Source of the DNA: Congeria kusceri
Taxonomy: Eukaryota; Mollusca; Bivalvia; Myida; Dreissenidae
Assembly: GCA_027627225.1 (NCBI GenBank)
Contig: JAPFQT010000166.1
Coordinates: 372,001-436,000 of the forward strand
Direction: 5' to 3'
Length of the DNA stretch: 64,000 nt
This document shows positions 1,851 to 38,399 of the stretch, piece by piece (within the stretch, counting starts at the first letter, position 1; each line of letters opens with the position of its first letter). The notes under the pieces were generated by a model that ran no database searches, was not told the DNA's origin, and saw nothing but the letters and a program-made list of their open reading frames with translations. The translations under genes and the position numbers were made by a program.

Positions 1851-4687
1851 ATATAATATTGACCTAAAATGTCAAAAAATTGCAATGATTCTACAAAATA
1901 TTACACTTAATTGCAGTCTGTCAAATATATATTGTCCAGTAATTTTATATTTTGTTTGATTTAGAGTGTTTTCGTTGTTGAAAAGTGTCACTTAGTTATT
2001 AGACCAAAAAATACACTTTCATTGCAATAAAACACTTTTGCAATGTTTGGAGAATAAAAAGTGAGGTTTCGTCCGTTTTAATTGTTGAAAATGGTAATAA
2101 AGTTGAAATGATTCTGCAAATAGATTCTTACACCATTGAGGTCAGTCAGATTAAAATGTTGTTAATTCCTTTTTTACCAAACGTTTACAATCTTCTCTTA
2201 TAGCAATACACTATCTTTCAGAAATGTATAGTTTATTTGAATATTTCCTATATGTTTAGGTTTATTGTTTGTTGCCAATTATATCAATTCTACAATCATA
2301 ATACCTTTATTGCAGTTAGTCTAATTAAATATTTCAATAGACAGTTAATAATCAAAACCATAGCAGTTGTGTAGTTATTTAGGCACATAGTATAGTGTGT
2401 ATATATGTATAAATTGTAGAACAGTAAAAATCAAGTGTTTCATATTCCCTAGGTGAAAATAATCCATATGTTTGAACTACTTATATATTGTAGATAATGT
2501 AACTGGTGTAGTTCTTTCCAAGATAGCTTCATCATTTATCTGTATACTACATACTATCATTCCAGTGTAAAACTAGCATTGATATACATGTTTTCGCAGT
2601 GTGATATGTTTCCAACCATTAACTACAAGGGCGTATTGACGGTAGATTGGCAATGATATTTGCAGAAATAAAAATCATTTAAAGAGTATAAATATTGAAG
2701 CATTTGAAGCATTATTTAATATGATGCCATTGTTTCTATAAATAGGTAGCAAATGTACATGTGTTTATTATTTAAACAATGGTCATCAACGACACTTTCG
2801 CGGTCACGCGAAAATTTGTAGTATTAGTAAAATCAATATGAATGAAATGTACATGATGTACCATCACGCACATATGCACCATTGATAATCGTTGCATAGC
2901 GCTGGAATGTTTTCATTAAAGAAAGCAATTTTGTAGGCGTGATTTTGAATTCTACTGGAACTGTGCCAAGACAAAATTCATTTTTGTCTTCGTACATGTG
3001 TATATTCCTATTTTTAACGATTCCATCCATAGATTGTTAGTAATCGAAAAATATATGAAATTTTATTTTTAAATATGTATATGAATTTTCGAAATACTGT
3101 CAATATGCCCTTTAATTCATCAGTAGTAATTATACATACCATATAACCGTATACATCTTAAAACAATAGCCAGTTCTAGCGTTCAAGGCCTCAACACGAT
3201 TTTGGTATAAAAATATCTTATTCAAATAACTAGCATTGTTATTGTTTGTCAATGAAGTATAATGACTTTTGTTTGAAAATGTAATATCATTATCAATTTA
3301 ATATTATTAAAAATAGTAATCAAACATTGTTCACTGACTCCGTCATAATGTCAGGGTATGCTATCAGTAAAGGAAGAAATACACATTAAAAGTAAAATTT
3401 CACATCGGCCATAACAGTTTGAAGTAGAAAGATTCTGTCTCCAAGATTGTCTTCGCTACATTCCTGTAAGTAGCGCATGTACTTGCATTTAAAATATTAA
3501 CACAGTCACCACATTGTATGCAGCTATTCCCTTTGTGTACGCCATATGTACGTGAACTATTCATTATTTATCGGGAGGAATTGTCATGAACTGGATTTCT
3601 TTTCTTTTTCTGTGTTAAATATTGAATATAAGGTATAAAATAATACACAAAGTGAATATTGTAAATAAAATATCAATAAAGAGTGTTAGTTAGACTATTG
3701 TATAACAAACAGTCGGCAAACAAGTGATTACTATTTGTTATGACTTATGATGAACTTAAAAGACGGTTGTTTTATTGGTCAAAATACTATATTATATATT
3801 ATATTATAGTTGGTTCTGGGCCTATATTCACAAAGCTCCTAAGGAAATTCTTAACTTAAGTTATACTTTAGTCGAAAATTTCAAATACCATTTTCTATGT
3901 AAAAATCATTATTTATTTTTTAAATATGGTACCATTAGAAGCATTTTTTGATTCTTAACCAGAATAAAACAGTTTAACAGAAAAGAAAATTTAAAAGAAA
4001 TGTCCACAGACGTAAGGAATTTTATATTTTTAAGAAATTTACTGAAGTTTTCCCCATGGAGCTATATGGATACGTCCCTGAGTTTGATCCCTACTGGGTG
4101 AGCGTTTGAAGGGATCTTTCTCACAAGACACCAAGTACTGGTTCTTCCCCGGCAACGGACTCAAAAATGTTTCCATTAGCATATGGCTTTCCACACAGTC
4201 AAGCTTCAAAAAGGTTTAAATTAAAATGCTATTTTATAATAATCATATAAGTGTTTTTAATATATGCATTTACAGATTTTGCAAAAAGAAGAAACATATT
4301 TATGTGCTCATTTCATTCAAATACTGTCACAGACGAGGGCTGCTTACTAGTCTAACATCAAAGCTCATGTTGAATGAATGATTTTGTGTCTGTTGATGTT
4401 TATTGTTGTTGCCTGTAATAATCTTCTATATGCCTTGAATTCATTGCCCTCATAAAATGTGTTGATATTCTTGAATGAAGTTCCCAACTGCACAAAAAGT
4501 CACATGTACATGTATATGAAAATGAGTATTGATCTATTAATGTTTTACCATCACTTTCTCATAGTATTCTTTTAAGTATATTACTTAGAAATATGTGAGT
4601 TAATAAAAATCTTGATGCAAACATAAATCATTCCAGCATTTTGAGTTGTTACGGAAAATATTTGCCAAAAGATACTGATATACTGAG
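1851..4687. other. gene-poor AT-rich stretch
   Basis: I see no recognisable gene. A 65-codon open frame on the minus strand at 2833-3030 has an ATG and reasonable codon use but resembles nothing I know; I do not call it a gene. At about 3815 the sequence CTGGGCCTATATTCACAAAG resembles one end of a PIF/Harbinger-type terminal repeat, but no partner end was found. Confidence 0.4.
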
Positions 4688-5042
4688 TTTAAAGCCACAG
4701 TCCAGAAATATGTTAATAAAATAAAACTTTTCAGAAATCTGCTTCTAATGGACATCTTACCGATCAAAATACAAAAAACCGCTTAAAATCGATGAAATAA
4801 TGACCTTTTGGTAACTTTTTATCGTAAAGTTTCTGTAAGCGATAGCTGGTGATGCCTCTAGAGTAAATCAGCATGTACATTATTGTCTACTCCGTTCGTA
4901 ACAAGCATTTCAAACATAGACAGTATAAAATGGCTTTCTTAAAAAAGAAACAGTTTTTAGTGGAATAAATACCACTAACGTTCATTAGAACTAATGCCAA
5001 TTTAATATGTATTGAATTATATTATATGGACTGCGGCTTTAA
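4688..5042. mobile_element. MITE-like element with ~16-bp terminal inverted repeats
   Basis: TTAAAGCCACAGTCCA near 4689-4704 is matched in inverse orientation by TGGACTGCGGCTTTAA at 5027-5042, one mismatch in 16. The roughly 350 bp between are non-coding, as in a miniature inverted-repeat element. The right end directly abuts the 54-bp minisatellite. I could not settle the target-site duplication. Confidence 0.6.
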
Positions 5043-6040
5043 TGTAATGTAGTAACATGTTATACATGACGTTATACGGGATTAAATCTGATGTAATGAC
5101 TTGTAGTAACATGTTATACATGACGTTATACGGGATTAAATATGATGTAATGACTTGTAGTAACATGATATACATGACGTTATACGGATTAAATCGGATG
5201 TAATGACATGTAGTAACATGTTATACATGACGTTATACGGGATTAAATCTGATGTAATGACATGTAGTAACATGTTATACATGACGTTATACGGGATTAA
5301 ATCTGATGTAATGACATGTAGTAACATGATATACATGACGTTATACGGGATTAAATCTGATGTAATGACTTGTAGTAACATGATATACATGACGTTATAC
5401 GGATTAAATCTGATGTAATGACTTGTAGTAACATGTTATACATGACGTTATACGGGATTAAATCTGATGTAATGACATGTCGTAACATGATATACATGAC
5501 GTTATACGGGATTAAATCTGATGTAATGACATGTAGTAACATGTTATACATGACGCTATACGGAAATAAATCTGATGTAATGACATGTAAGAACATGATA
5601 TACATGACGTTATACGGGATTAAATCTGATGTAATGACTTGTAGTGACATGTTAAACATGACGTTATACGGGATTAAACCTGATGTAATGACATGTCGTA
5701 ACATGATATACATGACGTTATACGGGATTAAATCTGATGTAATGACATGTCGTAACATGATATACCTGGCGTTATACGGGATTAAATCTGATGTAATGAC
5801 TTGTAGTAACATGATATACATGACGTTATACCGGATTAAATCTGATGTAATGACGTGTCGTGACATAATATACATGACGTTATACGGGATTAAATCTGAT
5901 GTGATGACATGTAGTAACATGATATACATGACGTTATACGGGATTAAATCTGATGTAATGACATGTCGTAACATGTTATACATGACGTTATACGGGATTA
6001 AATCTGATCTAATGACTTGTAATAACATGATGTGATGCAT
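5042..6040. repeat. 54-bp minisatellite, about 18 copies
   Basis: The unit contains TGATGTAATGACATGTAGTA and ACATGACGTTATACGGGATT and recurs every 54 bp. Because 54 is divisible by 3 and the unit lacks stops in some frames, long repetitive open frames appear on both strands (205 codons on plus, 229 on minus). They are by-products of the array. After about 6030 it passes into a decayed stretch with two copies of GATGTGATGCATGCAATGAT (about 6028 and 6088) that runs to about 6200. Confidence 0.9.
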
Positions 6041-6204
6041 GCAATGATAAACAGATAAAAAATGTAATACAATGTAATATTATACATGATGTGATGCATG
6101 CAATGATACAGAGATAAAAATGTAATAGTGTAATGTTATTCCTGATGCTATAATGTATCATACTTAATGTTATACATGATATGTGGTGTGTTATACATGA
6201 TATG

Positions 6205-6414
6205 TGGTGCGTCGTGAGAAAACCGGTCTTAATGCTAATCCAGGATGGAACTTTCCGCCTTTATGGTATTTTCTGTTTCAAGAAAGTCTCTTCTAAACAT
6301 AAATCAGTGTAAGCGGAAAGTGCCGTCCTGGATTAGCCTGTGCGGACTGCACAGGCTTATTCGGGACGACACTTTACACACATGCATCAAGTCCGGTTTT
6401 ACCACGACGCACCA
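6205..6414. mobile_element. 210-bp MITE with ~31-bp terminal inverted repeats
   Basis: The left end TGGTGCGTCGTGAGAAAACC at 6205 and the reverse complement of the right end (TGGTGCGTCGTGGTAAAACC, ending at 6414) match over about 31 bp with four differences. The inside contains the GC-rich segment CCTGTGCGGACTGCACAGGC, a short palindrome characteristic of a repeat I associate with bivalve genomes (from memory, not searched). It is non-coding. Confidence 0.7.
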
Positions 6415-7641
6415 CATATATATTAGATGATGGTACACTATTTATGTTGTGGAAGATGTTAAAACACATGATGTAATACTTGGTTAGACTTTAGTGTTAA
6501 ACATATTCATTATGCATTTAGTTTGTAATGATTTGCGGACGTGTGTCTCCGGTCGTGTTTGATTGGTTAATGAATGGTCAATAGAAGGTCAATGAAAGGT
6601 AAGAGTGTGTCATTCATGATCAATATTCTTGCTGGTTCCCATCTTCTGAGAATTTCAATGTTCATTTTGGTTCGCATCATTCTTGTGATATTTCATCTTT
6701 TCTTGTATGTTGTATTTAACTCTGCACAATAACTTTCCTATTGAAATTGTGATACAAGTTTGAAATATGAAAGTAATCAAAACCCTTTTTGTGTCTCATT
6801 TTTTGATTGTAAAACCTAGTGTTGCAATTTGTGACTATAAATATCACTTTGTTTTAAGAATCATCCTGTGTGTAAAGTGGTATTTATGATAAAAAATAGA
6901 AGTCTGTGTGTGTATAAAACATTTTCAAGAACAAAAATCATTCCATTTCCAATAAAGGATTATATTCAGATGCTGATTTATGACAGTATTACCAGCTACA
7001 TTCCATGTCATAAGAATGTGAAAACTAAAAATATTGTTATATGCACAAAATTGGTAAACAAAATTCCGAAAATCTTAATGTAAAGTTATATTTTAAGTGA
7101 ACATTCAAGATGAAGCTTTGCTGGAAATTTGGTTAAATTGGAAACATACATTTCACTTTTGAATACAATATTGTTTTGCAAAGTGTATTATAAATGAAAC
7201 AATTTAAGACTTGAGTAACTTTATAATTTTTATTATGCTTCAATGAACTTAGTTAATTTTGTCTAAAGATCTTTATGAATATGTGTAGTTTCATATGTAT
7301 TGGTAATAAGATTCCCAACTTGAAATGAAACATTGCCAGTTTGCAGTATTACATGTATTTCATTGTTAACATGTAGATGAAAGTTTTATTATGTGGTAGA
7401 TTTAGTATTTTTCATGGCTAAAATTAAATTGCGATATGACATTTATTTTATGATGTCACAGCAACTTTGCAGCAGGATTTTCCACAGTTGTCTAAAATGG
7501 ATTAATTTTATTATATTGTGAATGTTAAAATTGCGAAGTGATTTTTAAACACAGATGACTGTGGAAGTCAATTTGTGCCATTGAACACAAGGTAAACTAA
7601 ACAAATGTTTCTCATCATTGTGACCACTGTTTGCATCCTAA
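6415..7641. other. gene-poor AT-rich stretch
   Basis: Only short random-looking open frames are present, the longest 71 codons at 6868-7083. I see no motif, repeat or RNA gene. Confidence 0.5.
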
Positions 7642-8107
7642 TTTATGCCATGTGTACGCTTGAGTAGACCATTCTAATGTATGCAATGTGTACGCTTGAG
7701 TAGACCACTCTAATGTATGCCATGTGTATGCTTGAGTAGACCATTCTAATGTATGCTATGTGTACGCTTGAGTAGAACACTCTAATGTATGCTATGTGTA
7801 CGCTTGAGTAGACCATTCTAATGTATGCCATGTGTACGCTTGAGTAGACCGTTCTAATGTATGCTATGTGTACGCTTGAGTAGACCACTCTAATATATGC
7901 CATGTGTACGTTTGAGTAGACCACTCTAATGTATGCCATGTGTACGCTTGAGTAGACCATTCTAATGTATGCCATGTGTACGCTTGAGTAGACCATTCTA
8001 ATGTATGCCATGTGTACGATTGAGTAGACCATTCTAATTTATGCTATGTGTACGCTTGAGTAGACCATTCTAATTTATGCTATGTGTACGCTTGAGTAGA
8101 CCATTAT
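7642..8107. repeat. 36-bp minisatellite, about 13 copies
   Basis: The unit GTACGCTTGAGTAGACCATT plus CTAATGTATGCCATGT repeats every 36 bp with light point divergence. The 129-codon open frame on the minus strand here is a reading of the array, not a gene. Confidence 0.9.
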
Positions 8108-8254
8108 AATCTTTGATATGGCCAACTTAGTATTACGATGGTCTGTCTGCTTCTTTAACACACGTTAGATAGGCCCGTGTAATCCGTGTAAGGTGGCGAA
8201 TTATTATGTTATTGTTTGTAGGAGCTTACTGCATAGTAGACTGTACATGTTATG

Positions 8255-21199: not shown

Positions 21200-21712
21200 A
21201 AGGTCAGTTAATGAACAATTGTCGTTGTTCAGGTTCTAGGATGTTTTCTTCATCAATGCTGAGTTCTTTGAATATTTTCTGCCGTTTTCTGTTTTTGTCT
21301 TCTTCTTCTAATCTGTCAAGCACTTCTTCTGCTACTTCTACTGGTTTTGTAGTTCGCACAAGATAGCTTTTGGTGCCAGACATACAGTGTTGGTTGACAA
21401 ATTGGTCAAGGTAACAATTATGTTCTCCTTTCCAGACATCATTAATGCTGGACTCACTTCAACAGTACTAGGCAATTTACTTGCAGTACACAATCAAAAA
21501 TAAACATGGTTGACTTTCCGTTCGTGGTATGACCTCTACTGTCAACTCCACTTCAATGCAGCCTAAATATGGTAATAACTGTCCGTCAGCGCACTCTACA
21601 TGGAGAATTTCTTGCAAAGGTTGTAATGGAATGTCTTTAAAGTGTTCTTCGTAGAAGGAGTTGGCGATAACACTTACACAGCTTCCTGTGTCCAACAGTG
21701 CTTGCGTTTCTT
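21200..21712 (-). pseudogene. Ty3/gypsy aspartic protease and linker, broken
   Basis: The frame just downstream of the 80-bp array reads INGKETQALLDTGSCVSV: the D-T-G catalytic triad of a retropepsin with typical hydrophobic context. It stays open to 21477, then continues only in shifted frames through a linker rich in Glu/Lys (EEVLDRLEEEDKNRKRQ) toward the reverse transcriptase. At least two small frame changes occur between 21480 and 21200. The reading frame of the protease is offset from gag by exactly what the array adds. Confidence 0.75.
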
Positions 21713-24271
21713 TGCCGTTAATATAGATGCTGGCTTCGTTAGATTCTCCTACTAATTTGGGATCTGTAATTGTAGTGCCCGCATTCGATCCTTGTCGTTA
21801 ATATAGATGTTGGCATCATTAGATTCTCCTACTAATTTGGAAACTGTTATTGTAGTGCCCGCATTCGATCCTTGCCGTTAATATAGATGTTGGCTTCGTT
21901 AGATTCTCCTACTAATTTGGAATCTGTAATTGTAGTGCCCGCATTCGATCCTTGCCGTTCATATAGATGTTGGCTTCGTTAGATTCTCCTACTAATTTGG
22001 AATCTGTAATTGTAGTGCCCGCATTCGATCCTTGCCGTTAATATAGATGTTGGCTTCGTTAGATTCTCCTACTAATTTGGAATCTGTTATTGTAGAGCCC
22101 GCATTCGATCCTTGCCGTTAATATAGATGTTGGCTTCGTTAGATTCTCCTACTAATTTGGAATCTGTTATGGTAGTGCCCGCATTCGATCCTTGCCGTTA
22201 ATATAGATGTTGGCTTCGTTAGATTCTCCTACTAATTTTGGATCTGTTATGGCAGTGCCCGCATGCGATCCTTGCCGTTAATATAGATGTTGGCTTTGTT
22301 AGATTCTCCTACTAATTTGGAATCTGTTTTTGTACTGCCCGCATTCGATCCTGGCCGTTAATATAGATGTTGGCTTCGTTAGCTTCTCCTACTATTTTGG
22401 GATCTGTAATTGTAGTGCCCGCATTCGATCCTTGCCGTCAATATAGATGTTGGCTTCGTTAGATTCTCCTATTAATTTGGGATCTGTAATTGTAGTGCCC
22501 GCATTCGATCCTTGCCGTTAATATAGATGTTGGCTTCGTTAGATTCTCCTAATAATTTGGAATCTGTTATTGTAGTGCCCGCATTCGATCCTTGCCGTTA
22601 ATATAGATGTTGGATTCGTTAGATTCTCCTACTAATTTGGAATCTGTTATTGTAGTGCCCGCATTCGATCCTTGCGGTTGATATAGATGTTGGCTTCGTT
22701 AGATTCTCCTACTAATTTGGAATCTGTTATTGTAGTGCCCGCATTCGATCCCTGCCGTTAATATAGGTGTTGGCTTCGTTAGATTCTCCTACTAATTTGG
22801 AATCAGTTATTGTAGTGCCCGCATTCGATCCTTGCCGTTAATATAGATGTTGGCTTCGTTAGATTCTCCTACTAATTTGGAATCTGTTATTGTAGTGCCC
22901 GCAGTCGATCCTTGCCGTTAATAAAGATGTTGGCTTCGTTAGATTCTCATACTAATTTGGAATCAGTTACTGTAGTGCCCGCATTCGATCCTTGCCGTTA
23001 ATATAGATGTTGGCTTCGTTATAATCTCCTACTAATTTGGGATCTGTTATTGTAGTGTCAGCATGCGATCCTTGCCGTTAATATAGATGTTGGCTTCGTT
23101 AGATACTCCTACTTAATTTGGAGCTGTTATTGTAGTGCCCGCATTCGATCCTTGCCGTTAATATAGATGTTGGCTTCGTTAGATTCTCCTACTGATTTGG
23201 GATCTGTTATTGTAGTGCCCGCATTCGATCCTTACCGTTAATATAGATGTTGGCTTCGTTAGATTCTCCTGCTAATTTGGAATCTGTAATTGTAGTGCCC
23301 GCATTCGATCCTTGCCGTTAATATAGATGTTGGCTTCGTTAGATTCTCCTACTAATTTGGAATCTGTTATTGTAGTGCCCGCATTCGATCCTTGTCGTTA
23401 ATATAGATGTTGGCTTGGTTAGATTCTCCTACTAATTTGGAATCTGTAATTGTAGTGCCCGCATTCGATCCTTGCCGTTATTATAGATGTTGGCTTCGTT
23501 AGATTCTCCTACTAATTTGGAATCTGTTATTGTAGTGCCCGCATTCGATCCTTGCCATTAATATAGATGTTGGCTTCGTTAGATTCTCCTACTAATTTGG
23601 AATCTGTAATTGTAGTGCCCCCATTCGATCCTTGCCGTTAATATAGATGTTGGCTTCGTTAAATTCTCCTACTAATTTGGAATCTGTAATTGTAGTGCCC
23701 GCATTCGATCCTTGCCGTTAATATAGATGTTGGCTTCGTTAGATTCTCCTACTAATTTGGAATCTGTCATTGTCGTGCCCGCAGTCGATCCTTGCCGTTA
23801 ATATAGATGTTGGCTTGGTTAGATTCTCCTACTAATTTGGAATCTGTCATTGTAGTGCCCGCAGTCGATCCTTGCCGTTAATATAGATGTTAGCTTCGTT
23901 AGATTCTCATACTAATTTGGGATCTGTTATTGTAGTGCCCGCATTCGATCCTTGCCGTTAATATAGATGTTGGCTTCGTTAGATTCTCCTACTAATTTGG
24001 AATCTGTTATTGTAGTGCCCGCATTCGATCCTTGCCGTTAATATAGATGTTGGCTTCGTTAGATTCTCCTACTAATTTGGGATCTGTTATTGTAGTGCCC
24101 GCATTCGATCCTTGCCGTTAATATAGATGTTGGCTTCGTTAGATTCTCCTACTAATTTGGAATCTGTTATTGTAGTGCCCGCATTCGATCCTTGCCGTTA
24201 ATATAGATGTTGGCTTCGTTAGATTCTCCTACTAATTTGGGATCTGTTATTGTAGTGCCCGCATTCGATCC
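21713..24271. repeat. 80-bp tandem array, 32 copies, inside gag-pol
   Basis: The motif CATTCGATCCTTGCCGTTAA (and close variants) occurs every 80 bp from 21781 to 24261 with no net length change: 32 occurrences, 31 exact intervals. On the element strand each unit encodes, in one frame, the linker between the gag zinc knuckle and the protease, ending INGK. Because 80 is not a multiple of 3, successive units rotate through three frames. The 2480 extra bases shift the frame by two, which is the observed offset between gag and protease. Units differ by scattered substitutions only. Confidence 0.95.
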
Positions 24272-25431: not shown

Positions 25432-26544
25432 TATAATTAAGAAACTAATTAATAAACAGACTGAAATGTAAAACAGATTCTACATAATACACACAAAATA
25501 AATTATGGAAATCCTCTGCAAATCTGAAAATGTGCAAATAAATGTTAATGTTTTAATAAAAATTTACATTGCTGCAACAAGTATAAAACATCAAACTACT
25601 CACTGCAAAATAATACAGTTATAAATCAATTAATCAATCTGCCTTTCCTGAAATTTTAAAACAGGCATGTCAAGGTCAAACTTTCAATGTCAATACTTTT
25701 ACCGTCAAGGTCAATATCCCAGTATATCAAGCATGTGTAGCATTCAGCAAGATTTCAAATTAAACCACCGCTATATAGCTGTGTGATATGAATGCTGGTC
25801 ACTACCTCCAGACAAACAACACATCTGAAATAAAACTAGTTGGCCTCTGAAAAGTACTGTTATAACAAAAAATAATATGATATACTATGTACTGTTTTCA
25901 AAATGATGGCAACATTATGAAAAGTAAAGATGCTTCAGCTAAATATAATTATAGACTTGTTAGAATTAAGAACCTCCACCTAGGTTTATTTATTTATATG
26001 CTATGGTATAATGCAATAGTGACACTTTCCCAAATTTTCCTTTTCACTTTCCTAGACTATTTAGAAAATTGCAGTTCTAAATGAAACAGATAACAAAATA
26101 TAGCAAAATATTTACAAAATACTGTACCCAAATGGTTGTTTACAACCTGATAAAGAAATTCAACTGCCATTGACTAAATAAATGGCCTTCCACTATTGGT
26201 ACTTACAAAAACAAGTTAAACAGCTGTCTGGATCAATCAATAGGCCACTAGACTGCAATTTAATTGTCACATGGTCCACTGTCAGTTCGAGGGTCCTTGA
26301 CGATGTACACACTGCAACTCCAAGCTGCCCCCTCAATACAAATCAGCAGTGCAAAAACACTTTTCAGTTGTTAAACAATAGAAACAAAAGTTTATACACT
26401 TTGGGCGCCATTTGTAAATTGTGTGCTGTAGTGATAGATGAATAGTAAATTATCTACACAACACAATGGGTTCGATTATATGTCTGTTTAATAGTTACCC
26501 TCCATGTTCACGTCAATCAGTTGACAACATGATAGTATTTAATA
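25432..26544 (-). other. 5' leader of the retrotransposon
   Basis: This non-coding stretch lies between gag and the 44-bp array. No open frame of note and no clear primer-binding site are seen. It is AT-rich and otherwise featureless. Confidence 0.5.
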
Positions 26545-27205
26545 CTAATATGAGTATATATCTGTCAAGGTCGCAGACACTGATATCACTTGCATGAGTA
26601 TATATCTGTCAAGGTCGCAGACACTGATATCACGTCTATGAGTATATATCTGTCAAGGTCGCAGACATTGATATCACGTGCATGAGTATATATCTGTCAA
26701 GGTCGCAGACACTGATATCACGTGTATGAGTATATATCTGTCCAGGTCGCAGACATTGATATCATGTGTATGGGTATATATCTGTCAAGGTCGCAGACAC
26801 TGATATCACGTGTATGAGTATATATCTGTCAAGGTCGCAGACACTGATATCACGTGTATGAGTATATATCTGTCAAGGTCGCAGACACTGATATCACGTG
26901 TATGAGTAAATATATGTCTAGGTCGCAGACACTGATATCACGTGTATGAGTATACATCTGTCAAGGTCGCAGACACTGATATCACGCGTATGAGTATACA
27001 TCTGTCAAGGTCGCAGACACTGATATCACGCGTATGAGTATACATCTGTCAAGGTCGCAAACACTGATATCACGCGTATGAGTATATATCTGTCAAGGTC
27101 GGAGACACTGATATCACGTGTATGAGTATATATCTGTCGAGGTCGCAGACACTGATATCACGTGTATGAGTATATATCTGTCAAGTTTGCAGACACTGAT
27201 ATCAC
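26545..27205. repeat. 44-bp minisatellite, about 15 copies, in the retrotransposon leader
   Basis: The unit GTATATATCTGTCAAGGTCG plus CAGACACTGATATCACGTGTATGA recurs every 44 bp with few substitutions. It lies between the 5' LTR and gag of the Ty3/gypsy element, so it would be in the transcript leader. Confidence 0.9.
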
Positions 27206-27289
27206 ATGCTGAAGCCCTGCAATTATAAATTACGGATTCTCAACAGTAATAGACCAAATATACAATCACAATAATATTGAAATATATAA

Positions 27290-27619
27290 TCATGATGATG
27301 AAGGAATAAATATACGCTAATATCTAGTGGCCGTCTATACAATGTTTCCGCTGAATTACATCACAATAACTCGACAACTTAAACAAATTGTTCACACCGG
27401 CATAATAAGAACAATAGTAATTGCAATTAGAACAATATGTACATTTCCATACAGGACATTTACCACAACAACAACATACCAATTGTGGATTGGCCTCTCA
27501 CGACAACACCTGACACTGGACCCTGAGCTGTTCCCCTGTGCTGGGCTACTGCAATATTAATGCATATGTGCACATAAATATTAAAGACGGTGATAATTGT
27601 TACGACCGTTAATAATATA
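27290..27619 (-). repeat. 5' LTR, part A (downstream, U5-side half)
   Basis: It matches 16770-17107 of the 3' LTR at roughly 90% identity and stops at TAATATA (27613-27619). The missing half appears 10.3 kb to the right, starting with the same seven bases. Confidence 0.85.
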
Positions 27620-31703: not shown

Positions 31704-32334
31704 CAGGGATCCCTCTCTGGTTTGGGGGAAGAGTGACTGTACCCTCAGGCGGGGGAATTTTAGCGTCTTTTTACACAGAAAGCGAAATTTTGACTTAGCA
31801 AACGAGTCAACAATAAAAACTATTAAATATAGTTTTTAAATCACTTTATTTAGTCTAAGTCTTTACCTGACAACTTTATTCATGAAAATTATCAATAAAT
31901 TGAATATTATATTAACTAGTCAAATTTTAACCATCTACGGTCTACCACTTGAAAATTATCAGGTGGAGCAGTGCAACAGATAATTTTTCTTGCAATTTAA
32001 CAGATTTTCACTTCTGATTTTTAAATCGTTTTTTAACTTCCAATGTGTAACCTTAATTAATTTTGTTAAACTACTTTTACTAATTCTAATACAGTAATAA
32101 ACTGTGTTTTCGACTGAAAGACACTGTATTTGTGCCTTTTTGTTTCACCTGTTTTTAAAACTTTTAAGCAGAAGCCATTTTCCCAAAACAGAAATTACGG
32201 TTCCCGGCAAACAAGTTAGCAGTTAACTGTATATAAATGAAGTTTTATTATGAAAGCACAAATAATCGGGAACCAGACAAGTCAAAACAGTCATTTAACA
32301 TGACAATGTGATGTTCTTCGGATTTTATCGTTAA

Positions 32335-32811
32335 GGTTACAGTATACTAAATATTTCAGGTGTGCAATGCTATACTCTCTAAATAAATCAACACCATTTA
32401 TTTGAAGACACAATTTTCTGTATAGTCACTTGCCATGACTTTATTTTTGAATATTTCTTTGTACATGTGGTAGGAAAAACATTGTTGTGTACTAAAAATT
32501 CACTGTTTCGCTTGAAGGTTGGAGACTACATGACGAGACTTTGACAGTTGGCAGTATACCTTCAACTGGAGAGTAGCCGGTAAAAAGATGGCCGTAAAAC
32601 AGTGAACTTTGATTCGCGTCGAGTTCTTTCTTACATATCACATGACCTATCTTTTTTATTGTCTAAATCAATTCGGCTCGGAATGCTCTTTAAGAAAAGG
32701 TATGGTTATGAGGGTCTCTACGCGCAAAATGTTGAGTTTATTTTTTGTTGAATTTATTGCTTTTACATTGAATTTTGTTAAGGAAATCTTTTAGTATATT
32801 GTGACCTAAAC
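32335..32811. repeat. 477-bp direct repeat, left copy
   Basis: It is identical to 36131-36606 except for two positions (ACATGTGG versus ACGTGTGG, and one extra T in GAATTTTG). It begins GGTTACAGTATAC and ends TATTGTGACCTAAAC, so its own ends are short imperfect inverses (GGTTAC/GTGACC). It contains AAGATGGCCGTAAA, close to a YY1-type initiator site, about 220 bp before the end, and lies directly upstream of the nuclease gene, so it may serve as that gene's promoter. Confidence 0.92.
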
Positions 32812-32853
32812 TGACTTTGGGTTAAAATAAAATATCGTCTGCAAGTGCAAAAT

Positions 32854-33394
32854 ATGGATGAGAAAGCAGATTTTTGGTCATTTCTGAGCAAAAGAGTAGA
32901 AAATAAGTGCATTAAATGCATCAATTCAGATTGTTTGATCTGGAATGGTTGTATTTCAAATAGTTCCTTACCCTATTATGGCCGAATGAGGGCTAAATTG
33001 CCTTCGGACATAAAATCAGAGACATACTTGGTTCACCGTGTAGCGTTAATGTGCTACATGAAGTCAGAATTGAACGCCAGGGACTCTGTGAGCCACTTAT
33101 GCAACAATAGCTTGTGTGTTAAGCCTGAACATTTAAACATAGAGCCCCATTCCACCAACATGGAACGGCGGACATGTTTACAGTTCGGACAGTGCAGCGG
33201 GCATGGAACTGAGCCAGCCTGCATATTTGGTAAAAACATGAATACAACAAGCTTTATCACTTCCTTTTATTCATAGAAATACACTTAAAATACATAAATG
33301 CATGTTTTTTTCATTTTATATCTATTTCTATTGGGTATTTTTGCCTTTTTCAGGTAGAGGAACGCCTGATGCTGACGCGAGGGCCACTTGTTAG
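32854..33394 (+). CDS. His-Cys-box (I-PpoI-type, beta-beta-alpha-metal) endonuclease, two exons
   Basis: Exon 1 is 32854-33229 and exon 2 is 33354-33394 (intron GTAAAAAC...TTTTTCAG, phase 1), giving 138 aa. The core shows VHRVALMCY near residues 55-65, then SHLCNNSLCVKPEHLNIEP, STNMERRTC, CSGHGTEPAC and RGTPDADARATC. This is the zinc-binding loop layout of His-Cys-box homing endonucleases such as I-PpoI: a Cys/His cluster, the catalytic general-base His in SHLC and the metal-binding Asn in STN. These enzymes cut double-stranded DNA. The first exon also has an earlier C-x2-C pair (CIKC). It begins 42 bp after the left 477-bp repeat and ends 57 bp from the tail of the convergent transposase-like gene, suggesting one functional unit. 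All motif residues are present. It is shorter than I-PpoI (163 aa). Confidence 0.75.
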
Positions 33395-33451
33395 AGGTCT
33401 CTTATGCCAAAACAGGTAATAATAACAATTTATTATCAGGTACACAATCAA

Positions 33452-35412
33452 CTAAGCATATTTATGATACTTAAGGTGTGGAAGACTGTCATAATCAGGT
33501 TTGGGGTCACTCATGCCCTTGCCGTAGTGTAATTCCTCATGCAGTTTGTATCGATAATTCCGCGTCCTGGCACGTAAAGCTCGTGCTTTGTTGGTAGCGG
33601 ATGTTTGCTTTCGGTTAAGGTCGTTGCGGTCCTCATATGCTATCTGCTTAATAATCTTTGACCCCTGGGTAAGGTTAGCATTTAGTTCAGTGGTTTTTGC
33701 AATTACAGAGTCAGCATAGCCATTGTTTAATTTGTGAACCTGCCCGTGAATTCGACCTACACAGTTGCGTGAGAAAGTCACAGTTTTAGGATTGACAGCT
33801 TGGTACGACCTGTTTACTGCTTCACTTTTTTGGGTTGTGGTTAAAAGTTTGGTAGCGTCAAGAGCAGCTGGACCTAAAACCATTTCAATGCATTTTTTAA
33901 GGACTTGTTGGTCACTGTCAACCATTTTAACCTTGACATTGTCTGGCATGAAATTCTTAGCTTGCCTATTTGTACCAGCACAGACATAACTGTACTTTGC
34001 ACAATGAGTACCGCAGTAACCACTGAAGCATAGAACAATGGTTGCGATTACATCAACCATGACCTTCTTTAGAACCTTGATGTCACCCTGGTGTTTATTG
34101 TGGGCAGCTTTAAGCTCAGCCATACACCTAGCTTTGACCGAGAGAGCGAACCGACTCCTGATATTAGACTTGGAATGACCCTTGAGCATGCCCTTTGAGA
34201 AAGGCGCTTTGTTGAGCTCGCGCTTCAGCGAGTTGCCTAGGTGCCTCAGATCCTTAAGATGACCCACATTGTGACCGTGAGAGTTACGAACACCTTGGAA
34301 TGCCCTACTGTCCCCATCACAAGTGAAATTTGCTATTTTGATGTCCTTAGAGATCTGGTCACCTAACAACCTATTCCATTTGCCTTCATCACCTATTGGT
34401 TCCCTCTCTGAAACATTTGCAGAACAATGCCCCCTATGATTGGGGCACTGAACAGGTTTACCCTTATTCCTAAGCATTGATGCAGTCCTGCATAGTTTAT
34501 TTGCTACTTGTACCCCTACAATTTGCTTGTTTCTGGTATTGTTTTCACACATAGTGCTTATGGCAATAGTTCCGGCTTGAAAGGGTGTCGCGTCAGAGTT
34601 AACAATTGGATTGTTGTAGCAAGTGTCCCCTTCAACATTTACCTTAGAGGGATCTTTTTGACCAATTTTGGCATTTTCAGCAACTAAGTTTTCTCTAATC
34701 TGGTACATGCTTCTCTCATTTAGGGATTTAAGGGCAGTATTGACCTTATTTGCTTGTTTTTGCATAGCAAGTGGAGAGGGAGCAATGATATTGGTTGTGT
34801 TGAGAATTCTGCGGGAACCTGTGTTCCCAATAGAAGTACTTGCAACACCTATTTGGAAGCCTACATTGATCTGAGCTGCCTTTCTGCCCCTGGTACTTGA
34901 TGGAACCTCATTGTAAAGCTTATAATGCTTGCCTACATATCTGCATCTTGTACATTTTAACCTTTCCTCCCAGCCTAAGCCCCACTTTATGGAAGCACTG
35001 CCGTCAATTACCAAGTCGCCCCTACATTTATCACTTCTTAACCTATGCTTTCTATTTTCAGAGGACATCATAGACTGGAGTAGGGCGGGGACATAGACCT
35101 TGTTCGTAAGTAAGTCGGGATGGACTTTTGATGGAGCAGGAACCCGTAACAGGTCTACATAGCGAATCTTGTTCGCTCTCGGACGCACTAGGGCTTAGCT
35201 GGGGTTTGAGAGCCGTCTACATCCCGAAAAGTAAGAACCTTGTCATTGTAAGCTACCCGTGCTTCAAAGGATGACCTTTCTAACCTTACATAGGTTGTGT
35301 TGGAATTTGACCTTCTTTCATAATTATGTTTTTTTCCCTTCACCGGACTAGTCCCACCTCGTTTAAAACCAACATTGAGCAACTTTTTCTTTTGCTTGGT
35401 TATGAACCCCAT
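33452..35412 (-). pseudogene. Mutator-like transposase-type protein, about 650 codons with one frame break
   Basis: The frame opens at the ATG at 35412 (MGFITKQKKKLLNVGFKR, basic) and runs to TAG at 35188-35190. The frame one base over then continues without interruption to 33452 (578 codons), so a single indel near 35195 splits one gene. Visible motifs: LKCTRC, GFQIGV..., APSPLAMQKQANKVN, NVEGDTCYNN (candidate first Asp), CPNHRGHCSANVSEREPIGDE, NFTCDGDSRAFQG (candidate second Asp), VGHLKDLRHLGNSLKREL and a Cys-rich CFSGYCGTHC. The order resembles the Mutator-like transposase domain (GDG, later DGDS, then a K...H helix), so I infer a DDE/D-type recombinase, but I cannot place it firmly. It is convergent with the His-Cys nuclease. 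If the break is a sequencing error the gene is intact. Confidence 0.6.
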
Positions 35413-36130
35413 TTTGACCAGATTGCCACCTTAAAAAAAGTCAAAGTACTTATTTTGTGCCCAAAATATGCAATTTTGTATTCCCTTAAACCTCTAAATG
35501 TGAGCAGGCAATGCAAATTGACCACCTGCTGCAGTTTAAAGGCACTCATGACATTATATACTAGAATATATAATTGGTGGCCTGTAATTAAAGAGGCTGC
35601 GACAAACAAGGTGCTTTAAAGACTTTACACTTTATTGGTTTGAAACAAGCAATTACTGGAAGCTGATTGATTTCTACACTTCAAAGTATCTTTGATCTCC
35701 CATTTTGACTAATTTGTTAATTGTCTTGGATGAAAGTGGAATTTTTTTTCTATTAAATTTACATTTTTGGGGTGATTTTTTTTTAAAAATACACAAAAAA
35801 TACATTATCAAAATGGCTTAGAGTAAAAATATCTAACAAAGTCATTCTCTCCTCACCCCACATAAGCCCCCCATACATGTTTGTTTGGTTTGTTTGGGTA
35901 ATTTGTCACAAATATTGCAAATATCAGCTTTAATTGTTAGAGGGACATTTAAGCTTCAAGACGCTTGAAATCACCGGCTTCCGACCAAAATCACCTGTGT
36001 TTGAAAATATGAAATAAAATGGCCAAATGGACAGATATACAAGCCAAACTTAAAATATTGGTGCAATATGCATGGGAAGATAATTATATGCAAGAAAAAC
36101 TAATTTTAATGAGAACAAATTTCTCTTATA
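35413..36130. other. spacer between the transposase-like gene and the right 477-bp repeat
   Basis: AT-rich. A possible small coding exon starts with ATG at 36019 (MAKWTDIQAKLKILVQYAWE) and reaches the edge of the right repeat, where TATAG/GTTAC could be read as a splice site. I do not recognise it. Confidence 0.35.
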
Positions 36131-36606
36131 GGTTACAGTATACTAAATATTTCAGGTGTGCAATGCTATACTCTCTAAATAAATCAACACCATTTATTTG
36201 AAGACACAATTTTCTGTATAGTCACTTGCCATGACTTTATTTTTGAATATTTCTTTGTACGTGTGGTAGGAAAAACATTGTTGTGTACTAAAAATTCACT
36301 GTTTCGCTTGAAGGTTGGAGACTACATGACGAGACTTTGACAGTTGGCAGTATACCTTCAACTGGAGAGTAGCCGGTAAAAAGATGGCCGTAAAACAGTG
36401 AACTTTGATTCGCGTCGAGTTCTTTCTTACATATCACATGACCTATCTTTTTTATTGTCTAAATCAATTCGGCTCGGAATGCTCTTTAAGAAAAGGTATG
36501 GTTATGAGGGTCTCTACGCGCAAAATGTTGAGTTTATTTTTTGTTGAATTTATTGCTTTTACATTGAATTTGTTAAGGAAATCTTTTAGTATATTGTGAC
36601 CTAAAC
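36131..36606. repeat. 477-bp direct repeat, right copy
   Basis: Same orientation as 32335-32811, two differences in total. Together they enclose 3.3 kb with the nuclease and transposase-like genes. The short bases CGTT lie just outside both outer edges (32329-32332 and 36607-36610) and could be a 4-bp target duplication. Confidence 0.92.
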
Positions 36607-36791
36607 CGTTTGTTATGGTGCTTAAGTAAATCTGATCCCCGAAAATTACTCCCATAAACAACACGAAAACAAATTCGATGGCAGTTCATTTAGGGGAAAT
36701 TTTGGCCTGAAATGCGGGAAAAATATATACTTTTTAATTGGGGGGAATGATGCCAAATTTCGGCATCAAAAAACAGAGATCGAGACCCCTG

Positions 36792-38216: not shown

Positions 38217-38291
38217 GTCGATGAATGACAACCGCTCACAAACACGCACAACACACACGATATATAGACCGGACGTGATATATAGAGAATA

Positions 38292-38389
38292 ACAGGTTAC
38301 TGTCTGGTCTTGTGTAATATATCAGGTGAGGCTTAGAATAATATAACAGCGAGGCTTCATATATTACACAAGACCAGGCAGTAACCTGC
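38292..38389. mobile_element. 98-bp foldback (hairpin) element
   Basis: ACAGGTTACTGTCTGGTCTT at 38292 pairs with AAGACCAGGCAGTAACCTGC ending at 38389; the stem extends about 31 bp per arm through TGTGTAATATAT with two mismatches, leaving a loop of about 35 bp. Non-coding and of MITE type. Confidence 0.65.
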
Positions 38390-38399
38390 TTTTCTAATT

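Follow-up and report, generated by a model that had tools for sequence, protein, structure and literature searches.

The question raised by this locus is what kind of unit brings an I-PpoI-type nuclease gene and a transposase gene together between two near-identical direct repeats. It lies near the middle of a 64,000-nucleotide stretch of a contig from the bivalve Congeria kusceri (hereafter the window), and a first-pass annotation, made by eye from the raw sequence, had proposed a mobile unit of new architecture. Our analysis indicates that it is almost certainly a copy belonging to a KolobokP family, which consists of Kolobok DNA transposons with a composite-like build and the plan LTDR-INT-LTDR, where LTDR denotes a long terminal direct repeat and INT the internal region. 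KolobokP was described in 2022 by Kojima and Bao, with 228 families in seven phyla (PMC9587614), so the architecture is already published and the window element is a member of a known lineage. That one mobile unit carries both a nuclease and a DDE-type transposase is upheld by its recurrence in the genome and by empty sites, and the by-eye deduction did recover a real and unusual transposon type.

In the KolobokP paper, LTDR-INT-LTDR is given as the typical monomer, with LTDRs of about 450 or about 660 bp that have short inverted termini of their own (PMC9587614). The two convergent genes encode a His-Me nuclease and a DDD/E transposase in which a CCHC zinc finger follows the first D, the C/DxxH motif follows the second and a further zinc finger precedes the E (PMC9587614). 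Target duplications of about 4 bp, solo repeats, multimers and repeat excision are also reported there, and the elements are common in bivalves, with hosts that include Dreissena polymorpha and D. rostriformis (PMC9587614).

A single mismatch and a single 1-base gap separate the direct repeats of the window (32334–32811 and 36130–36606), in agreement with the two differences counted earlier. Inverted ends are present in each repeat, GGTTACAGTATACTAAA versus TTTAGTATATTGTGACC, a feature missed in the first-pass annotation; they match at 15 of 17 bp and therefore fix the element at 32335–36601. With boundaries drawn at these GG...CC termini, which have the 5'-RR/YY-3' form, LTDR1 occupies 32335–32806 (472 bp) and LTDR2 occupies 36131–36601 (471 bp), both on the forward strand. 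Comparison of junctions across copies places INT at 32807–36130, beginning with TAAAC and ending with TATA; TAAAC, the final five bases common to both repeats, is outside the element proper. The resulting length of 4,267 bp falls inside the range of 4,022–4,748 bp given for autonomous oyster KolobokP families, and an LTDR near 450 bp with its own 11–18 bp inverted ends and RR...YY termini is likewise a shared feature (PMC9587614).

The transposase gene lies on the minus strand. Its main open reading frame (ORF) runs from 35188 to 33455 and encodes 578 residues (33452–35188 with the stop codon) that match PF20700 at 146.6 bits (E=1.2e-42, Pfam scan), and an N-terminal piece of 74 codons (35412–35191) is in a different frame in the window copy. 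The gene of about 650 codons that was first described is thus interrupted by one frameshift here, and 10 of the 15 other copies that span the full gene are open over 652 codons when translated. In an alignment of 35 of the 99 protein matches (A1), residues D262, C307/C322/H325/C329, D365/D367, D387..H390, C461/C470/C477 and E530 are invariant or at least 90% conserved, and by eye they can be assigned to the DDD/E triad, the C/DxxH motif, a CCHC zinc finger and a second zinc finger that precedes the E. Because these Kolobok residues are kept, the Pfam name "Mutator" is a label and not a classification, and the earlier description of the protein as Mutator-like does not stand. Mutator/MuDR elements duplicate about 8–11 bp of target, and membership in that group was rejected on the 4-bp duplication found here. 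The closest named relative of the transposase (P0003) is from Dreissena polymorpha, with 89% identity across the full query. PF20700 is also present in the Mytilus edulis protein P0048, which is named ORC2 and may derive from a gene model that was joined to a transposon copy.

On the forward strand, the ORF of the nuclease begins at 32854, and its match to PF05551 (42 bits, cut-off 27, E=1.3e-10, Pfam scan) bears out the identification of an I-PpoI-type His-Cys-box enzyme. A plausible GT-AG intron at 33230–33353 would separate exon 1 (32854–33229) from a predicted exon 2 (33354–33394, stop codon included), giving 138 residues if spliced. The two genes are convergent, as first described, and the distance of 57 bp from the nuclease to the transposase stop holds if this splice, suggested by the GT-AG sites, is made. 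The two nuclease relatives that were found instead continue through into a similar tail. The closest named relative of the nuclease (P0002) is again from D. polymorpha, with 75% identity over 91%. Residues S80, H81, H93, E97 and N102 are invariant in all three aligned sequences and, matched by eye, have the same spacing as S97, H98, H110, E114 and N119 of I-PpoI (PMC9587614). The protein therefore resembles the I-PpoI/His-Cys-box group I intron endonucleases in its S-H, H, E and N residues, whereas its gene differs from theirs in lying inside a DNA transposon and not an intron. A search of the PDB with the single nuclease sequence matched only an unrelated chain, a search of NCBIfam gave one weak match below cut-off for the nuclease and none for the transposase, and no viral relative was confirmed in IMG/VR.

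I-PpoI cuts within its site at TTAA^GG. A target of this kind at the TTAA-GG junction of the element was considered as the site of the nuclease and is not supported, since it scores at background. The left junction matches the I-PpoI half-site at 8 of 10 positions, a score reached at 45 places in the 64-kb window (this one included), with three more at 9, and it matches the full site (CTCTCTTAAGGTAGC, as quoted in PMC6294500) at 8 of 15 positions, a score exceeded by the 16 places in the window that reach 11. In this respect, too, the element departs from I-PpoI, whose site matches the element ends no better than background.

Insertion of the unit can be read from its flanks. These read ...ATCG-TTAA-element-TAAA-CCG..., with the left target copy at 32331–32334 and the right copy at 36602–36605, and they belong to another dispersed repeat (about 32185–32334 and 36605–36754) with at least 40 paralogues at 94–98% identity to the joined flanks (40 scored out of 832 candidates). 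All five paralogues that were fetched, from the 40 listed, read TTAA once and then CCG, so the target of the window insertion was TTAA. A second element, L012 (L009–L041 denote the copies compared), lies within a tandem repeat with 99-bp units and has TTCA at either side, and five uninterrupted units of that repeat read CTCGCTTTCATTCTTG, i.e. with a single TTCA. The check for empty sites that had been suggested for this locus is thus answered at two independent targets. Other duplications are TAAA in L011, TTAT in L013 and TCAA in L017/L018, the last two being on two contigs and presumed from their sequence to form one array. All are TTAA-like and fall within the 3–5 bp published for KolobokP (PMC9587614).

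The genome searched comprises 1.55 Gb, and the whole element gave at least 50 matches in it; the copies compared show LTDR-INT-LTDR, LTDR-INT-INT and mixed arrays. In a profile search for the nuclease, all 150 scored matches (of 4,113 candidates) were above the family cut-off, so this family and its relatives are abundant in the genome. We compared these 150 listed matches with the 114 listed PF20700 matches, of which 27 cover the full profile and 87 belong to another class. Among the matches listed, a nuclease lies within 2.5 kb of 12 of the 27 full-profile matches and of none of the 87 others (0/87), and about 0.05% of the genome lies within that distance of a listed nuclease match. All 12 pairs are convergent, and seven of the 12 belong to one array. 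This convergent pairing of a transposase with an I-PpoI-like His-Me nuclease is that of KolobokP (PMC9587614).

Twelve arrays selected from the nuclease search gave 40 spacings between neighbouring matches, classed by length alone: 27 are 3,790–3,810 bp, the length of LTDR-INT, 11 are 3,315–3,325 bp, the length of INT, and two are about 2,920 bp. The array on contig C14 contains seven nuclease matches at a constant spacing of 3,318 bp, each accompanied by a stop-free transposase match in an open frame of 663 residues; with the absence of LTDRs judged from this period, it is a candidate coding satellite that lacks the repeats. At G000:C570:39536-45546, nuclease matches are about 2,920 bp apart, perhaps representing a shorter relative in an array.

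Junctions within the arrays of the window's own family bear on the fate of single repeats. The end of INT that precedes an LTDR reads TATA in 14 of 14 junctions, and TAAA follows the LTDR in the five LTDR-INT junctions that were read. Since the two flanks of INT differ in this way, the side lost at excision is often readable. INT-INT joins, which are what loss of one LTDR would leave, were found 24 times with a strict pattern and read TATA (15), TAAA (4), TATAAA (3), TATATAAA (1) and TATAAAA (1), counts that are of junctions and not of events, because arrays copy junctions; 13 of the 15 TATA joins come from one array on contig C1. Either 4-bp copy can therefore be lost, 2 bp are lost in three joins, and one join (TATATAAA) is lossless. 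The published account of KolobokP, by comparison, has a loss of 3 or 4 bp in almost every case (PMC9587614), so that the footprints readable by side, including the 2-bp loss and the lossless join, are slightly new here. Two copies on contig C17, L026 (about 4239–8008) and L027 (about 3499–7268), consist of LTDR-INT without a right LTDR and with an INT about 7 bp shorter at its end; a possible origin is excision of the right LTDR followed by duplication.

Solo repeats are known from older relatives. Among LTDR copies of 69–76% identity with no INT within 1.5 kb on either side, L038 is flanked by a duplication of TATA and L040 by one of TCAA. Solo repeats by themselves could also arise by recombination between LTDRs. 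Together with the (LTDR-INT)n and LTDR-(INT)n arrays and the footprints at INT-INT joins, they add to the likeness to KolobokP (PMC9587614), and no feature was found that breaks membership. A further parallel is with bacterial composite transposons flanked by insertion sequences, in which a cargo likewise lies between two mobile end modules and the unit that moves may be a single module or the entire structure; KolobokP differs from them in that its transposase gene is in the middle and not in the end modules (PMC9587614). The C. kusceri genome is well suited to studying these elements, since it offers young copies and empty sites as well as long arrays and side-readable footprints.

Three other explanations of the locus were weighed against membership in KolobokP. 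The two genes might by accident have ended up flanked by copies of some unrelated repeat, and the broken transposase frame of the window copy, with nothing further, speaks for such a chance nest. The same gene order and orientation recur across the genome, and whole units are found at different targets with matching 4-bp duplications and corresponding empty sites; because the unit recurs at independent insertion sites, this explanation is refuted and retains practically no probability. A defective or unusual retroelement, with the repeats serving as long terminal repeats (LTRs), is suggested by the long direct repeats, the solo repeats and the arrays, all of which resemble those of LTR elements. 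We regard it as extremely unlikely, as the first-pass annotation did: the repeats have 17-bp inverted ends and start with GG and end with CC instead of following the TG..CA rule for LTR ends (PMC9587614), they appear to leave arrays singly with footprints, and no reverse transcriptase family turned up when the two genes and nine other ORFs of at least 60 residues that overlap the element were scanned against Pfam.

The true unit might instead be INT itself, as a satellite or circle colonised by an independent miniature inverted-repeat transposable element of 472 bp. The INT-length arrays, such as that on C14, are in keeping with this, as is the fact that, among metagenomic transposase relatives of at least 600 residues on contigs shorter than 20 kb, 45 of 62 sit on contigs of 3.0–4.2 kb. 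Circular DNA is an unnecessary cause for the latter, since collapse of direct-repeat elements by the assembler would be expected to give contigs of that length. All 11 left edges that were read start at an LTDR (copies picked by LTDR match, three of them being one insertion and two another), the 4-bp duplications are located at the outer LTDR ends, and the published typical monomer is LTDR-INT-LTDR (PMC9587614), so that an INT-based unit is very improbable.

Several observations weigh against assignment of the window unit to KolobokP, or at least fit it less well. Its transposase is broken by one frameshift, at codons 74/75, a break common to the window insertion and its duplicates L009 and L010, and 5 of the 15 other full-span copies have one stop in this gene. 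The right target copy is imperfect, TAAA instead of TTAA, which may reflect a change of one base or conversion to the sequence after LTDR1 (TAAAC). Among the matches listed, 15 of the 27 full-profile PF20700 matches have no nuclease nearby, and the divergent copy L039 has a repeat and a frameshifted nuclease with no transposase match in about 5 kb beyond. The search with the repeat gave 13 matches, and in none of them is the young family to which the window copy belongs represented by a solo repeat; of the older solo repeats L036 (TTTA/TAAA) and L037 (TAAT/TTAT) are without a clean duplication and L041 is partial. In a PDB profile search the chains of I-PpoI aligned in the right register at E values of 1–1.5, ranking below three unrelated chains at 0.37–0.91, and an AlphaFold2 model of the nuclease built from three sequences failed (mean predicted local distance difference test score 32.7) and was not used.

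From the duplications, arrays and footprints we infer a course of events in which the transposase would act on the inverted ends borne by each direct repeat of about 472 bp. Use of the outer ends would move the whole LTDR-INT-LTDR and duplicate a 4-bp TTAA-like target, whereas use of both ends of one repeat would release that repeat alone and join its flanks, leaving a small footprint. Arrays of LTDR-INT units would grow by recombination between repeats, and loss of a repeat inside an array would produce INT-INT joins. The nuclease most likely stimulates this recombination by cutting element DNA, as Kojima and Bao propose, and LTDR excision together with nuclease-induced unequal crossover is already part of their scheme (PMC9587614); of all the steps, the role of the nuclease is the most conjectural. 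A more specific version, to which we give limited credence and which is on balance unlikely, takes the footprints to fit a double-strand cut made precisely where a repeat ends, in place of an IS3-like copy-out circle. Both 4-bp flanks would then sometimes survive (as in TATATAAA), and in other cases 2 or 4 bp would be trimmed away. In that version, repeat loss would leave immobile coding satellites without LTDRs that still make both enzymes for other copies.

Recent mobility had been proposed from the near identity of the repeats. Left and right repeats within one element differ by 0–3 changes in eight pairs, of which one spans the two contigs presumed to hold one array, and left repeats of different copies differ by 1–4 mismatches and no more than one gap. 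These figures make recent activity of the family plausible, but identity within elements is hardly above that between elements and therefore gives no date for the insertion in the window. That insertion has a broken transposase frame and, counting its duplicates L009 and L010, is present at three places: C166:404 kb (the window copy), C166:47 kb and C3:84.4 Mb. The flanks of the three are 99.2–99.9% identical over 2.4–3.2 kb, reflecting either recent duplication or unmerged haplotypes.

Elsewhere in the window there are tandem arrays at 21629–24252 and beyond, 26417–27332, 5078–6186 and 7530–8192, with units of 80, 44, 54 and 36 bp, respectively. An inverted repeat at 38286–38395, with 37-bp arms that are 92% complementary and 36 bp apart, may form a hairpin or represent a small fold-back element.

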